The position numbers and the translations under genes were made by a program. 64,000 nt of DNA. It comes from Limosilactobacillus reuteri (lineage in GTDB: Bacteria > Bacillota > Bacilli > Lactobacillales > Lactobacillaceae). The stretch lies in the NCBI RefSeq assembly GCF_034259105.1, contig NZ_CP139478.1:1043501-1107500 (forward strand), written 5' to 3'. The notes under the pieces are model-generated. The model was not told the DNA's origin. It saw only the letters and a program-made list of their open reading frames with translations, and ran no database searches. This document shows, piece after piece, positions 14,695 through 55,773 of the stretch; the stretch's first letter is position 1, and each line of letters starts with the position of its first letter.

Positions 14695-15974
14695 CCTAAA
14701 TTTCAAGAATAAGTTAGCCACTGGACTCAAATAAATAATACTGACCAATTGATTATTGGTTGATGGAGCTGTGATATCTCTTGGTAGAAGGCCTTACGAT
14801 AGATATCCATTGACGAATGTCCATTAAACATAGCTCGTGGATAGTGATTCATCCAATCATTAGTCGCTATGATCTGAGCACTACTATAGTTATTTATAGC
14901 TTCACCTTTGGTAATCTCCTTGCGGAGAAACCGGTTATTGATCTCATTGGATCCACGTTCCCAAGGGGAATACGGATCAGCATAGAAAACATGATCGTGA
15001 ACTTGTGTTAACTCACTAAATTCTGAACCGTTGTCAGAGGTTATTGTCTTAAAGATGCGATAGTAAGCATCTGTGCCCATTTTCTGGCGTAAATTTATAA
15101 AGAACTGATTTACTGCATGCGCAGTTTTACCAGCAATTTTACTCGTGATATTAACTCGTGAAAGGCGATCAGTCATTACTAGTACAACACTGTCATTACC
15201 GTTTTTCTGTCCCTGAACTGTATCTAGTTCCCAATGGCCAATTTCGGACCGTTGGTCCGCAGTTTGAGGTCGTTGAGCAATATTAGGCCCTAAGCACCTT
15301 TTAGCTTGCGGATGAGTTCGATGATGCTTACGTTTAGGTTTTTCAAAGAGGTCTAAATTGGACGTACGAAGCACACCCTCATTAATCCATTGATATAAAG
15401 TTACAACCGACTTTGGGATCAGGGTGCCATCATTCATTAAATCTCGAGCCTTATAAATAACCGCTTGTGGGGAGTAATGGTGGTCGTCAAACTCACCAAG
15501 CATTAGCTGATCAGCTAATCGTAAAAATTGCTTTGAAGAATAATATAAGCGACGACGACCAGAATGGCGGTGATGTTCAAGATATGTGGCCTGACCAGCT
15601 TCATAACTATAGATGTAGTAAGAATATTCGTAAATCTTACCATTAGATTTTTGACGACGAAGTTGGCGGACCGTACCACGGTTGAGCTCGTTATTAATTG
15701 TTTGATGATTAACTCCTAATTGGCGACCAATTGCGCGATTGGAAAGTCCTTGCGACTTTAAAGTCGCAATCATCACACGTTCTTCTTTAGTAAGATGAGC
15801 ATTCTTTTTATGAGTAGTCAATAAACTAGTAGACATGGTATCATTTAAGTGCGTCATTTGACGGACATCCTTTCATATAGGTTTGGTTCACTTAATATGA
15901 TACCTGATGTCACGCCGAATGGCGTTTTTTATTTACCACCAACTGGGTGGCTAACTTCATTCTATAATCCACCA
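14695..15974 (-). mobile_element. IS-A copy 2
   Basis: Complete 1280-bp copy with a 12-bp target duplication TTTAAAAAATGC at 14683-14694 and 15975-15986. It inserted just 13 bp from the end of IS-B copy 1, so the two elements form a back-to-back cluster between dxs and the LPQTG gene. Confidence 0.95.
14727..15857 (-). CDS. IS30-family transposase (IS-A copy 2)
   Basis: Intact 376-aa transposase with the same helix-turn-helix and DDE residues as copy 1. It carries Arg at residue 68 and is identical in protein sequence to copy 4. Confidence 0.95.
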   Translation of the reverse strand: MTHLNDTMSTSLLTTHKKNAHLTKEERVMIATLKSQGLSNRAIGRQLGVNHQTINNELNRGTVRQLRRQKSNGKIYEYSYYIYSYEAGQATYLEHHRHSGRRRLYYSSKQFLRLADQLMLGEFDDHHYSPQAVIYKARDLMNDGTLIPKSVVTLYQWINEGVLRTSNLDLFEKPKRKHHRTHPQAKRCLGPNIAQRPQTADQRSEIGHWELDTVQGQKNGNDSVVLVMTDRLSRVNITSKIAGKTAHAVNQFFINLRQKMGTDAYYRIFKTITSDNGSEFSELTQVHDHVFYADPYSPWERGSNEINNRFLRKEITKGEAINNYSSAQIIATNDWMNHYPRAMFNGHSSMDIYRKAFYQEISQLHQPIINWSVLFI

Positions 15975-16044: not shown

Positions 16045-16863
16045 ATGAACCATTTAAACCACTTTCATGTATTGCAAAACACTTGCTTAGTAGGCTTAAC
16101 GATAGCGTCAACGATCCTTTCGCTATCGTTAAATACTCCACCAGTTCTAGCTGTATCCCAAGAGCCAATTACGCAGCCCGTATCTAACGCAAATAATCAG
16201 AAAGAACGTGTCCAGATCAAACGTGTAATTTATTTTCATCTCTTAAATGAAGTTAAAAAAGTGGAACAAATGTCTTATGCTCACCGTGAAGTAACGAATA
16301 ATCCCACCCAAAAGGCAATATGGATAATTGAACCTTTTGAAGAAGTTGATATTCCTGATCAACCTGGTTTTAAACCATCAATGGATAAGATTCCGACTGT
16401 TACAGAAATAGAGGATTTACCACAATTAAAAAGTACAGTAAATGTTTATTATCAGCCCCTCAATAAAGATGAAGTGACAAAAAAGGACAGCAAAGAGAAT
16501 ACGTTGGCAGAAAAGAAGGCGGTGGAAAAAGCAACAGAGAATAAAAAAGAGGAAAAGAAAGATTCGCAGGATAATTACCCCGTGGAAGAAGATCTGGGGG
16601 ATGATAGTCAGGTCACGGGAAATTATGGGGAGGTAAATAATACAAGAAAGCAGCAAAATTTGCACCAACGGGTAACGGGCATTAATAATCGACTAAATCG
16701 TTCACATCGGAATTCGCGTAAAAACGATAACTCTGACCAGCAAATACTTCCACAAACGGGAAATGAGACCGATAATTTAACGACTTTTCTTGGTTTGGGG
16801 ATAACGATAATGGTCGCGGGGATGAGTCTTTTTTCGTTAAAGAAGGCGCACAAAAAGAAATAA
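16045..16863 (+). CDS. LPQTG-anchored surface protein with one Mub-like repeat
   Basis: 272-aa secreted cell-wall protein. An N-terminal signal peptide (hydrophobic stretch CLVGLTIASTILSLSL, cleavage near VLAVSQ) is followed by a single region of ~85 residues (about 55-140). Its pattern, VQIKRVIYFHLLNEV...W.IEPFEEVDIPDQPGFKPSM...STVNVYYQ, resembles one mucus-binding (Mub/MucBP) repeat. A charged Lys/Glu-rich linker leads to the sortase motif LPQTG at residues 235-239, a hydrophobic helix and the tail KKAHKKK. Large Mub proteins have many repeats; one repeat is unusual and suggests a decayed or minimal adhesin. AGGAG precedes the ATG. IS-A copy 2 ends only 70 bp upstream and may have separated the gene from earlier upstream sequence. 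Confidence 0.82.
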   Translation: MNHLNHFHVLQNTCLVGLTIASTILSLSLNTPPVLAVSQEPITQPVSNANNQKERVQIKRVIYFHLLNEVKKVEQMSYAHREVTNNPTQKAIWIIEPFEEVDIPDQPGFKPSMDKIPTVTEIEDLPQLKSTVNVYYQPLNKDEVTKKDSKENTLAEKKAVEKATENKKEEKKDSQDNYPVEEDLGDDSQVTGNYGEVNNTRKQQNLHQRVTGINNRLNRSHRNSRKNDNSDQQILPQTGNETDNLTTFLGLGITIMVAGMSLFSLKKAHKKK

Positions 16864-16887
16864 AACAAAAAAACTTGATAAAAGGAC

Positions 16888-16916
16888 TTGCATTTTTAAT
16901 TTTCTAATAGTATTCT
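16888..16916 (+). promoter_or_regulatory. Promoter of the leader peptide/permease unit
   Basis: TTGCAT (16888-16893), 17-bp spacer, TATTCT (16911-16916). Transcription would start near 16923 and cover the leader ORF and attenuator. Confidence 0.5.
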
Positions 16917-16950
16917 AATGTTATTGAAAAACGAAATGGAGGAAACTAAA

Positions 16951-17028
16951 ATGCAAATTTACAATAAATCGATTATTCATTACCTAACCTCCACCTCAAC
17001 CACAACAACAATTACCGTGGTTGAGTAA
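16951..17028 (+). CDS. Threonine-rich leader peptide (25 aa)
   Basis: Short ORF preceded by GGAGG 8 bp upstream of ATG. Residues 13-22 read TSTSTTTTIT, giving seven Thr codons (four ACC, three ACA) in ten, then VVE and a TAA stop. The pattern resembles the thrL leader of enterobacteria. The Thr codons overlap the 5' arm of hairpin 1:2 (16995-17003), and the last codons plus stop overlap segment 2 (17017-17025). Ribosome position on this ORF would therefore decide which downstream hairpin forms. It directly precedes an APC amino-acid permease. Confidence 0.85.
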   Translation: MQIYNKSIIHYLTSTSTTTTITVVE

Positions 17029-17131
17029 TTTTAATATCTCTTAAATCTGTTAGCAATAGCTATTCAAGATGTCTCAACCACTTATCAAAAATTGACAAGG
17101 GTTGGCTAGGGACATTTTGGGTAGCTTTTTT
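16995..17131 (+). promoter_or_regulatory. Ribosome-mediated transcription attenuator (1:2, 2:3, 3:4 hairpins)
   Basis: Segment 1 CTCAACCAC (16995-17003) pairs perfectly with segment 2 GTGGTTGAG (17017-17025). Segment 3 (17073-17081) repeats segment 1 exactly and can also pair with segment 2 as an antiterminator. The terminator 3:4 pairs 17059-17073 with 17111-17125 (15 bp, three G-U) and continues with TCAACC/GGTTGG inside; T6 follows at 17126-17131. A ribosome stalled on Thr codons masks segment 1, lets 2:3 form and blocks the terminator. A ribosome reaching the stop masks segment 2 and allows termination. Pairings are read directly from the sequence; Thr-responsive control is inferred. Confidence 0.85.
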
Positions 17132-17149
17132 ATTTAAAGTGAGGTTAGA

Positions 17150-18541
17150 ATGATGGATAATCAGAAAAATGAAGTTAAATTAAATCGGACAATGACTCCC
17201 GGACAAATGGAAATGATTGCAATTGGTGGGACAATTGGTAGTGGTCTTTTCATGGGAGCCACATCAACTATTAAATGGACTGGTCCTTCTGTCCTATTAG
17301 CATATGCCTTTGTAGGTTTAGTCCTGTATGGTGTTATGCGTGCGTTAGGGGAAATGATCTATATCAGTCCAGGAACTGGTTCCTTTGCGGACTATGGATC
17401 TAAATATATTCATCCCTTAGCTGGATACCTGACAAAGTGGAGTAACGTCTTTCAATTTATCATTGTTGGTATTTCAGATATTATTGCCATGAGTCAATAT
17501 CTTAATTATTGGTGGCCTAACTTACCAGACTGGATTTCTGGGTTAGTAATGATCATTATCTTAACTCTTGCGAACCTTGCATCTGCTAAGGCGTATGGCC
17601 GGTTGGAATTTTGGTTTGCGATGATTAAAGTTGTTACAATTATTGTTATGATCATTCTTGGATTGTTAGTAATTGTCCTTGGGTTGGGTAACAATTGGCA
17701 TCCGGTTGGAATTTCCAATTTATGGTCACATGGTGGATTCTTTACTGGTGGATTCATGGGATTCATGTTCTCACTATCTGTGATTGCTGGATCCTATCAA
17801 GGAATTGAATTACTTGGTATTACTGCTGGTGAAGCCGCTTCACCACGCCATGCGATTGTTAAGTCAGTTAAATCTGTTATTTGGCGGATTTTAATTTTCT
17901 ATATTGGGGCAATTTTCGTTATCGTTTCCATTTATCCATGGGACGAATTAAAAGCAGTTGGATCACCATTCGTTGAGACATTTACTAAAGTTGGTATTAC
18001 TGGAGCAGCTGGAATCATTAACTTTGTTGTTTTGACTGCTGCATTGTCCGGTGCCAACTCAGGAATCTACAGTGCTAGTCGGATGCTTTTCAAGCTTTCA
18101 GTTGACGGTGAGGTTCCTAAGGTCTTTAGTAAATTGTCAAAGCGGGTTGTACCAAATGTTGCAATCTTAACAATTTCATTCTGGATTTTTCTTGGCTTTA
18201 TTGTTAACATGCTTATATCAATGTTTAATGCAGCCTCTGCTAATATCTTCGTGATTGTATATAGTTCAAGTGTACTTCCTGGAATGGTACCTTGGTTTAT
18301 TATTTTGATTTCAGAATTAAACTTCCGGCGTAATAATCCGGCTGAGTTAAAGGATCACCCATTCAAGATGCCGCTTTATCCAGCATATAACTACTTTAGT
18401 TTGATTGCGCTAAGTGTTATCTTACTGTTTATGTTCTTTAACCCAGATACACGGATTTCGGTTAGTGTTGGGGCAGTCTTCTTAGTTATCATGAGCATTA
18501 TCTACAAGTTAAGAACTCAGCGCCAAGATAAATTAGCATAA
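17150..18541 (+). CDS. APC/AAT-family amino-acid permease, probable threonine/serine transporter
   Basis: 463-aa membrane protein with about 12 hydrophobic helices. The N-terminus carries the amino-acid permease signature IAIGGTIGSGLFMGA in helix 1 (about residues 24-38), and the middle holds the conserved QGIELLGITAGEAASPRHAI region. It belongs to the AAT group that includes YifK/ThrP, LysP and GABA permeases. Substrate is inferred from context: the Thr-rich leader and attenuator upstream point to threonine or threonine/serine. A second ATG at 17153 is better spaced from the GAGG site and may be the real start. A terminator follows the stop. Confidence 0.85.
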   Translation: MMDNQKNEVKLNRTMTPGQMEMIAIGGTIGSGLFMGATSTIKWTGPSVLLAYAFVGLVLYGVMRALGEMIYISPGTGSFADYGSKYIHPLAGYLTKWSNVFQFIIVGISDIIAMSQYLNYWWPNLPDWISGLVMIIILTLANLASAKAYGRLEFWFAMIKVVTIIVMIILGLLVIVLGLGNNWHPVGISNLWSHGGFFTGGFMGFMFSLSVIAGSYQGIELLGITAGEAASPRHAIVKSVKSVIWRILIFYIGAIFVIVSIYPWDELKAVGSPFVETFTKVGITGAAGIINFVVLTAALSGANSGIYSASRMLFKLSVDGEVPKVFSKLSKRVVPNVAILTISFWIFLGFIVNMLISMFNAASANIFVIVYSSSVLPGMVPWFIILISELNFRRNNPAELKDHPFKMPLYPAYNYFSLIALSVILLFMFFNPDTRISVSVGAVFLVIMSIIYKLRTQRQDKLA

Positions 18542-22439: not shown

Positions 22440-23719
22440 CCTAAATTTCAAGAATAAGTTAGCCACTGGACTCAAATAAATAATACTGACCAATTGATTA
22501 TTGGTTGATGGAGCTGTGATATCTCTTGGTAGAAGGCCTTACGATAGATATCCATTGACGAATGTCCATTAAACATAGCTTGTGGATAGTGATTCATCCA
22601 ATCATTAGTCGCTATGATCTGAGCACTACTATAGTTATTTATAGCTTCACCTTTGGTAATCTCCTTGCGGAGAAACCGGTTATTGATCTCATTGGATCCA
22701 CGTTCCCAAGGGGAATACGGATCAGCATAGAAAACATGATCGTGAACTTGTGTTAACTCACTAAATTCTGAACCGTTGTCAGAGGTTATTGTCTTAAAGA
22801 TGCGATAGTAAGCATCTGTGCCCATTTTCTGGCGTAAATTTATAAAGAACTGATTTACTGCATGCGCAGTTTTACCAGCAATTTTACTCGTGATATTAAC
22901 TCGTGAAAGGCGATCAGTCATTACTAGTACAACACTGTCATTACCGTTTTTCTGTCCCTGAACTGTATCTAGTTCCCAATGGCCAATTTCGGACCGTTGG
23001 TCCGCAGTTTGAGGTCGTTGAGCAATATTAGGCCCTAAGCACCTTTTAGCTTGCGGATGAGTTCGATGATGCTTACGTTTAGGTTTTTCAAAGAGGTCTA
23101 AATTGGACGTACGAAGCACACCCTCATTAATCCATTGATATAAAGTTACAACCGACTTTGGGATCAGGGTGCCATCATTCATTAAATCTCGAGCCTTATA
23201 AATAACCGCTTGTGGGGAGTAATGGTGGTCGTCAAACTCACCAAGCATTAGCTGATCAGCTAATCGTAAAAATTGCTTTGAAGAATAATATAAGCGACGA
23301 CGACCAGAATGGCGGTGATGTTCAAGATATGTGGCCTGACCAGCTTCATAACTATAGATGTAGTAAGAATATTCGTAAATCTTACCATTAGATTTTTGAC
23401 GACGAAGTTGGCGGACCGTACCACGGTTGAGCTCGTTATTAATTGTTTGATGATTAACTCCTAATTGGCGACCAATTGCGCGATTGGAAAGTCCTTGCGA
23501 CTTTAAAGTCGCAATCATCACACGTTCTTCTTTAGTAAGATGAGCATTCTTTTTATGAGTAGTCAATAAACTAGTAGACATGGTATCATTTAAGTGCGTC
23601 ATTTGACGGACATCCTTTCATATAGGTTTGGTTCACTTAATATGATACCTGATGTCACGCCGAATGGCGTTTTTTATTTACCACCAACTGGGTGGCTAAC
23701 TTCATTCTATAATCCACCA
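22440..23719 (-). mobile_element. IS-A copy 3
   Basis: Complete 1280-bp copy with a 12-bp target duplication AATAAATTGACA at 22428-22439 and 23720-23731. The insertion falls across the start codon of the DUF3290 gene, leaving the ribosome-binding site on one side and the gene on the other. Confidence 0.95.
22472..23602 (-). CDS. IS30-family transposase (IS-A copy 3)
   Basis: Intact 376-aa transposase. It differs from copy 2 by Arg to Gln near residue 342 (NHYPQAMFNG). The DDE residues are conserved. Confidence 0.95.
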   Translation of the reverse strand: MTHLNDTMSTSLLTTHKKNAHLTKEERVMIATLKSQGLSNRAIGRQLGVNHQTINNELNRGTVRQLRRQKSNGKIYEYSYYIYSYEAGQATYLEHHRHSGRRRLYYSSKQFLRLADQLMLGEFDDHHYSPQAVIYKARDLMNDGTLIPKSVVTLYQWINEGVLRTSNLDLFEKPKRKHHRTHPQAKRCLGPNIAQRPQTADQRSEIGHWELDTVQGQKNGNDSVVLVMTDRLSRVNITSKIAGKTAHAVNQFFINLRQKMGTDAYYRIFKTITSDNGSEFSELTQVHDHVFYADPYSPWERGSNEINNRFLRKEITKGEAINNYSSAQIIATNDWMNHYPQAMFNGHSSMDIYRKAFYQEISQLHQPIINWSVLFI

Positions 23720-55511: not shown

Positions 55512-55631
55512 TTCTAAATTCTCCTACCTTTTTATTTATTACATTTTACAATTATCATTCCCATTTTGCCAATTATCTTTATTGATATTCATAAAGAATA
55601 ATTTGCGGCATACTATTAATAGACAATTTAT

Positions 55632-55722
55632 TGCATTAGGGGTGCCCATAGTGCTGGGCTGAGATGTGCAGAGACGCATGGACTCTAGAACCTGTAAGTT
55701 AACGCTTGCGTAGGAAAATGCA
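55632..55722 (+). promoter_or_regulatory. TPP riboswitch (thi box)
   Basis: Conserved elements in order: GGGGTGCCC, GCTGAGATG, the actively paired region around GACTCTAGAACCTG and the closing GCGTAGGAAAATGCA. The P1 stem pairs TGCATT (55632) with AATGCA. It binds thiamine pyrophosphate and here precedes a terminator and thiM. Confidence 0.93.
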
Positions 55723-55732
55723 CTGAACTTTA

Positions 55733-55773
55733 ATACTCAAAGTAGGTGTATTTCCTACCTTGAGTATTTTTTA
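55733..55773 (+). terminator. Riboswitch-controlled terminator before thiM
   Basis: Stem ATACTCAAAGTAGG/CCTACCTTGAGTAT followed by TTTTT. It lies 11 bp after the riboswitch, which makes transcription termination the likely output when TPP is bound. Confidence 0.85.

Follow-up and report, generated by a model that had tools for sequence, protein, structure and literature searches.

Within the 64,000-nucleotide stretch of Limosilactobacillus reuteri DNA analysed here (the window), a short leader separates an LPXTG-anchored protein gene (16045-16863) from a gene for an APC-family amino-acid permease of 463 aa (17150..18541, + strand). Its putative promoter (TTGCAT, 17 nt, TATTCT; 16888..16919, +) is proposed from the sequence and the conservation of the block, with TATTCT contained in the tandem block TTCTAATAGTATTCTAAT (16902-16919, +). 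Downstream of a GGAGG Shine-Dalgarno sequence (16938..16942, +) there is a leader peptide ORF, MQIYNKSIIHYLTSTSTTTTITVVE, of 25 codons plus a TAA stop codon (16951..17028, +; stop at 17026-17028), which is read from its translation and from Thr-rich ORFs at the same place in relatives. Seven of ten consecutive codons (16987..17016, +) specify threonine, and both the sequence and a model of ribosome position mark them as the regulatory codons. Segment 1, CTCAACCAC (16995..17003, +), lies among them and recurs as segment 3 (17073..17081, +), and both are exactly complementary to segment 2, GTGGTTGAG (17017..17025, +), which supplies the last three sense codons of the leader; all three segments can be traced in relatives. 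Segment 3 is the antiterminator partner of segment 2 and at the same time part of the 5' arm of an intrinsic terminator hairpin (3:4; 17059..17125, +), whose stem (17059-17073/17111-17125) includes G-U pairs, is extended inward by folding to a longer imperfect hairpin and is followed directly 3' by a T6 tract (17126..17131, +). The folding energy of 17056-17130 was -31.2 kcal/mol, and the leader RNA as a whole folded 4.8 sd below its dinucleotide shuffles, with none of 200 shuffles as low.

An earlier note on this DNA had described the 25-codon ORF with its GGAGG and its stretch of ten codons that includes seven for Thr, the pair of identical 9-mers with their common complement and the terminator stem with T6. 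Reading and translating the sequence bore out the first, the second is correct to the base and the third is also right, with G-U pairs in the stem. The locus holds what is looked for in an attenuator, namely a Shine-Dalgarno-bearing short ORF, a cluster of regulatory codons that includes segment 1, a terminator before the regulated gene, and 1:2, 2:3 and 3:4 pairings that exclude one another. The window has 169 readings from start to stop that span 10-50 codons and carry a Shine-Dalgarno sequence, and of these the Thr leader at 16951 alone has at least six copies of a single residue, or five Thr, within ten codons. The ordered layout of 9-mer, complement and 9-mer was found in 3 of 2128 overlapping 181-base tiles, all over the leader site, and likewise in 3 tiles of the minus strand, which were not located and are expected because the layout is its own mirror.

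The best match of the permease among 21 NCBIfam families was the threonine/serine permease ThrP (NF047867), at 557.9 bits and so under the curated cut-off of 850 by which membership is assigned. Given this score, and with a lysine permease as the nearest solved relative, the substrate is uncertain, and it is plausible that the permease works like ThrP. Homoserine dehydrogenase, which turned up in 14 of 14 controls, was not found in the L. reuteri genome, so the cell must probably import its threonine.

Ribosome position and alternative folds

In the ribosome-position model the RNA was assumed to be shielded to 14 nt past each A-site codon and the remainder was folded twice for every position, with transcription taken to 17095 (before segment 4) and to 17131. 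With the A site at 16978 or earlier the 1:2 pairing wins. The 2:3 duplex is complete, with nine pairs, for an A site at 16981-17002 and is reduced to seven pairs at 17005 and four at 17008, and from 17011 on the model gives neither 1:2 nor 2:3. Five of the seven Thr codons (16987, 16993, 16999, 17002, 17005) fall in the productive range, in which a stalled ribosome keeps most of segment 2 uncovered. Once the RNA is complete the model always favours the terminator as the most stable fold, so the choice between structures must precede the existence of segment 4. When no ribosome is present the unfinished RNA folds as 2:3 and not 1:2 and the complete RNA as 1:2 plus 3:4, and the default state without translation is therefore not cleanly predicted.

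Judged from its sequence and from comparison with relatives, the leader very probably acts as a ribosome-mediated attenuator of transcription, responding to charged tRNA-Thr and governing a permease for threonine, probably for threonine and serine. In the mechanism proposed here, for which we infer leader translation, the stall, read-through and the permease substrate, plentiful threonine would allow the ribosome to reach the stop codon and cover segment 2, the 3:4 terminator would form and transcription would end near 17131. When charged tRNA-Thr is scarce the ribosome would stall on the first five Thr codons and mask segment 1, leaving segment 2 to pair with segment 3 and RNA polymerase to continue into the permease gene, and a stall before the Thr run would let 1:2 form and favour termination.

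A stall anywhere in 16981-17005 would suffice in the model, and antibiotic-responsive genes with leader peptides are described in the available text of PMC10314930, so that one may ask whether the leader senses a general slow-down of translation, such as that caused by ribosome-targeting drugs, and not threonine. We consider this very unlikely, as it is the Thr run that is conserved and not the remainder of the peptide, the regulated gene encodes an amino-acid permease and has related genes that use Thr T-boxes, and a sister element places Ser codons before a different amino-acid permease (see below).

Conservation of the leader and its pairings

The permease was sought in 50 Limosilactobacillus genomes and the DNA upstream of its orthologue could be read in 45, the other five (G017, G024, G025, G039, G040) having no intact close orthologue with upstream DNA. 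One of the 45, G035, was set aside to leave 44; its apparent lack of both the Thr and the Ser leader (L006, L192) is an artefact of the record, because in both stretches read the ORFs abut exactly with no intergenic DNA. A Thr-rich leader, defined as an ORF with at least 4 Thr in ten codons, precedes the orthologous permease in 38 of the 44 genomes, a weaker Thr/Ser leader in three (G019, G008, G010), and upstream of the orthologue in the last three (G006, G047, G026) the leader is absent or decayed. Two of the 38 are atypical, in that segment 2 was not found in G016 (L119) and the terminator was not found by the script in G009 (L120). Among 80 named loci, with L. balticus at 98% among the named permease relatives, we counted 41 strong and 3 weaker leaders across Limosilactobacillus, Ligilactobacillus, Weissella and Pediococcus. 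ORFs with 4 Thr at -305 and -409 (L076, L087) are unlike leaders and were not counted, and a permease paralogue of 68% identity has no leader upstream at the 5 loci read (L126-L130).

After three loci at which wrong ORFs had been picked (L074, L095, L125) were dropped we retained 55 distinct leaders, some of them from close relatives. These have 18-28 codons and 27.7% Thr, and each is preceded by 4-6 bases of Shine-Dalgarno sequence, the script having favoured ORFs that bear one. Outside the Thr run the peptides diverge and the Thr codons are kept, so the conservation of Thr codons that the earlier note had proposed as a check was indeed found. The commonest Thr codon of the leaders is ACC (193/361), whereas four genes of the window use it least among their Thr codons (13/124); because ACC is also needed for the pairing, little can be drawn from codon choice by itself.

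At E up to 0.01, a model built from the Thr leaders only (R1) matched 64 of the family's 397 genomes, spread over 10 of its 40 genera. All of the best 30 family-wide matches were true on inspection and lie before a ThrP-like permease, and 20 further sites gave 16 true and 4 false. The false ones are L179-L181, from the three inspected of seven matches in genus g4, and L186 in g35; the range is thus confirmed in 8 genera, the sites inspected in g4 and g35 being false. Across 395 genomes of the order, 10 had R1 matches at E up to 0.001, all but one within the family, and the sole match outside it (L268) is an ordinary terminator.

Within 34 Limosilactobacillus sequences the 1:2 pairing was kept in 97.7% of cells and 2:3 in 99.0%, with no double changes for either, and segments 1 and 2 barely vary. 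The terminator showed 47 doubly changed cells compared with 29.1 in shuffles and 17 to 51 in slid controls. In 22 cross-genus sequences 1:2 pairs made up 88.8% and there were 3 doubly changed cells at 2 pairs, the number of cells being reached by 3 of 500 shuffles and the number of pairs by 50 of 500; these represent at most two events because L047 and L055, which share a C-G to U-A change in 1:2 with a synonymous ACC/ACT difference, are near relatives. The clearest compensatory case is L. hayakitensis (L065), in which segments 1, 2 and 3 are all changed at one position (CTCAATCAC, GATTGAG and CTTAATCA, respectively) and where L. agilis (L064) has a U-G pair in 1:2 at the same position. From one clade to another segment 3 is rewritten, with segment 2 changing to match, as in GCTGGTTGGGGCT with AGCTAACTGATCAGC of L. 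animalis (L061) and GCTGGTTGGGA with TCCAACCAGT of Weissella (L067). Of the compensatory changes that the earlier note had proposed to look for, a few are thus seen across genera, in L. hayakitensis and L047/L055, and none within Limosilactobacillus for 1:2 and 2:3.

The 2:3 duplex was further compared with shuffled sequence in 52 of the 55 loci, L119, L123 and L120 (terminator not found) being left out; many loci are close relatives and so are not independent trials. No more than 5% of shuffled segment-2 regions equalled the duplex in 45 of the 52 loci (7 fail), and no more than 5% of shuffled terminator arms in 40 (12 fail). Most failures lie outside Limosilactobacillus, where 5 of 11 loci passed with segment 2 shuffled and 4 of 11 with the arm shuffled, and L061 passes neither control. 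Support for the pairings is on the whole good, though uneven.

These data bear on the idea that only a remnant of a leader ORF is left, next to a hairpin that terminates transcription constitutively or belongs to the upstream LPXTG gene as its terminator. L. caecicola (L054) would fit it, as the hairpins before its permease are kept and the start of the leader ORF is seemingly lost, but the complementarity of segments 2 and 3 is kept in most scored loci and the leader accompanies the permease across genera, which makes a remnant very unlikely. It is extremely unlikely that control is mainly translational, with ACCTCCACC sequestering the GGAGG of the leader or a protein binding the hairpins, since although the predicted fold does pair UGGAGG with CCUCCA the permease start lies downstream of the terminator, and in the Ligilactobacillus and Weissella rows shown CCACC stands in place of CCTCC with the attenuator retained. 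The Thr-Ser codons ACCTCCACC include CCTCC, which is able to pair with the leader's own GGAGG (16988-16993 with 16937-16942), and such a pairing might possibly render leader translation self-limited.

Threonine T-boxes, serine leaders and known attenuators

Among the 36 named permease genes without a leader a T-box core was found upstream of ten, from Liquorilactobacillus, Periweissella and Ligilactobacillus ubinensis, and the other 26 have no T-box core upstream either. Eight of these T-box loci were put to Rfam and all matched T-box with E below 1e-12, six of them over the gathering score; the specifier, read from the alignments, is ACU (Thr) in 8 of 8. As these T-boxes read as Thr and the leaders are Thr leaders, tRNA-Thr is linked to related permeases through two sensors of different kinds. 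The T-box-bearing permeases have 57-66% identity. In a tree of 83 permeases, a quick one with warnings about long branches in which the order of the sensors and strict orthology are out of reach, the 49 rows on the leader side of the starred branch comprise 45 with a leader, one decayed and three without (two of them paralogues), and the T-box rows stand on the opposite side. The L. reuteri genome itself contains the two kinds of sensor side by side, its T-box matches numbering 27, of which 14 exceed the cut-off.

R1 also matched Ser-rich leaders of the same design, e.g. MLQLNLAKLNMSSSSASSSMIVVE, which precede a second and different permease whose best solved relative is 6f2g, known as the exchanger BasC, and in the L. 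reuteri genome R1 has a second site at E 9.5e-5. A Ser leader was present in 28 of the 30 best Limosilactobacillus loci, the misses being the G035 artefact and the L. reuteri genome itself, and a further Limosilactobacillus genome (G017, L240) had none. In 33 of 34 Ser or mixed loci the 2:3 duplex was equalled by at most 5 of 100 shuffles, with segment 2 only being shuffled. Weissella has mixed Thr/Ser leaders before the second permease. Outside Limosilactobacillus Ser leaders are rare, and among the 26 loci L240-L265 they were seen in L241 and L265 only, L251 having a T-box core.

Common descent of the Thr and Ser elements is likely from their sequences, and is unproven because both codon sets are C-rich and constrained alike by the pairing. 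We tentatively suggest, at somewhat less than even odds, that the two represent a retunable class of Lactobacillaceae attenuators, in which one promoter-plus-hairpin scaffold would have exchanged Thr codons for Ser codons, or Ser for Thr, before two different permeases and would stand, on the first permease, where a sister clade has a Thr T-box. If so, one gene would have switched between sensing uncharged tRNA-Thr by direct binding of the tRNA and sensing it by a stalled ribosome, and recoding would seem to have changed the amino acid read by an RNA switch. In any case, T-box and leader peptide on related genes lend themselves naturally to comparison as two sensors of one signal, and the codons alone predict the control, and less surely the substrate, of two importers in food- and host-associated lactobacilli.

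The enterobacterial thr leader combines Thr codons in a short leader with alternative pairings and an intrinsic terminator. The element described here is like it (RF00506) in all three respects and differs in preceding a permease and not biosynthesis genes, in its occurrence in Lactobacillaceae, in the use of Thr and Ser codons and in having no Rfam match. The E. coli thr leader contains eight ACC codons, as given in the available part of PMC1183508, and in the portion of a survey at hand (PMC3766115) amino-acid attenuators are considered perhaps of gamma-proteobacterial origin and mostly stand before biosynthesis genes. The statement of the earlier note that the mechanism is mainly enterobacterial and that Firmicutes mostly use other means needs softening, as it has been shown or predicted in several Firmicutes. 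According to the accessible sections of the reports concerned, ribosome-mediated attenuation was shown for the Listeria ilv leader (PMC5864092) and is supported genetically for that of S. aureus (PMC5794164), the latter study citing predictions for Lactococcus and Streptococcus. The Listeria ilv-leu leader (Rli60) and the S. aureus ilv leader resemble the Thr element in being from Firmicutes and in having a leader peptide with competing hairpins, but carry branched-chain codons, precede biosynthetic operons and are experimentally backed, whereas the Thr element is known from sequence alone.

Two further systems come closer in other ways, again going by the text available from each source. For hisS of bacilli, leader-peptide attenuation replacing T-boxes has been predicted (PMC2965389), and these His leaders likewise show a leader peptide where relatives have a T-box for the same amino acid; those of the hisS paralogue differ in serving tRNA synthetase genes with His codons in other bacteria. 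In the Bacillus cereus group a Thr T-box before a SteT orthologue (PMC2494555) also couples tRNA-Thr charging to an APC permease by antitermination, but it does so through a tRNA-binding RNA, has no leader peptide and controls a different APC permease. Nothing on the Thr/Ser leader element was found in the open-licence PubMed Central literature, and the part at hand of a survey of new RNA motifs (PMC8632094) does not mention lactobacilli. Ribosome-mediated attenuation itself is classical and known; what is new is the Thr/Ser pair, the transporter targets and the apparent exchange with a T-box, and the Thr/Ser leader element merits its own Rfam family.

Promoter block and other elements of the window

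Rfam gave no match at the leader at the gathering score and none up to E 10 on 16850-17200, and this includes the covariance model of Thr_leader (RF00506) and T-box (RF00230), each looked for at both thresholds. A simple consensus scan of the window listed no terminator-like sites, and among its promoter-like sites the putative promoter of the leader did not appear. The terminator was missed because the scan accepts no loops other than those of 3-8 and no stems but short ones, and the promoter at 16888..16919 is a weak match to the consensus. Elsewhere in the window a TPP riboswitch lies at 55628-55733, just above the Rfam gathering score, and two near-identical transposase-like genes of 376 aa each, IS30-like by eye, flank the region at 14727-15857 and 22472-23602.

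The promoter block TTCTAATnnTATTCTAAT is common to many loci of both the Thr and the Ser groups. A loose form of it was found before 30 of the 55 Thr leaders and the exact block, by eye, before 9 of the 16 Ser loci shown. The pattern has 2 matches in the L. reuteri genome, one at the Thr and one at the Ser locus, and the reversed control has 0. At this Ser locus (L168, G000:C3:465000-471500), which looks degraded over about 465356-466560, the promoter block (465356) and the Ser leader (466469) are separated by a transposase-like ORF, IS30-like by eye, and the Ser codons are out of frame relative to those of relatives. The block that many Thr and Ser leader promoters share is a tandem TTCTAAT repeat over the -10 region (16902-16919 at the present locus), which is possibly a regulator site or simply an unusual promoter.
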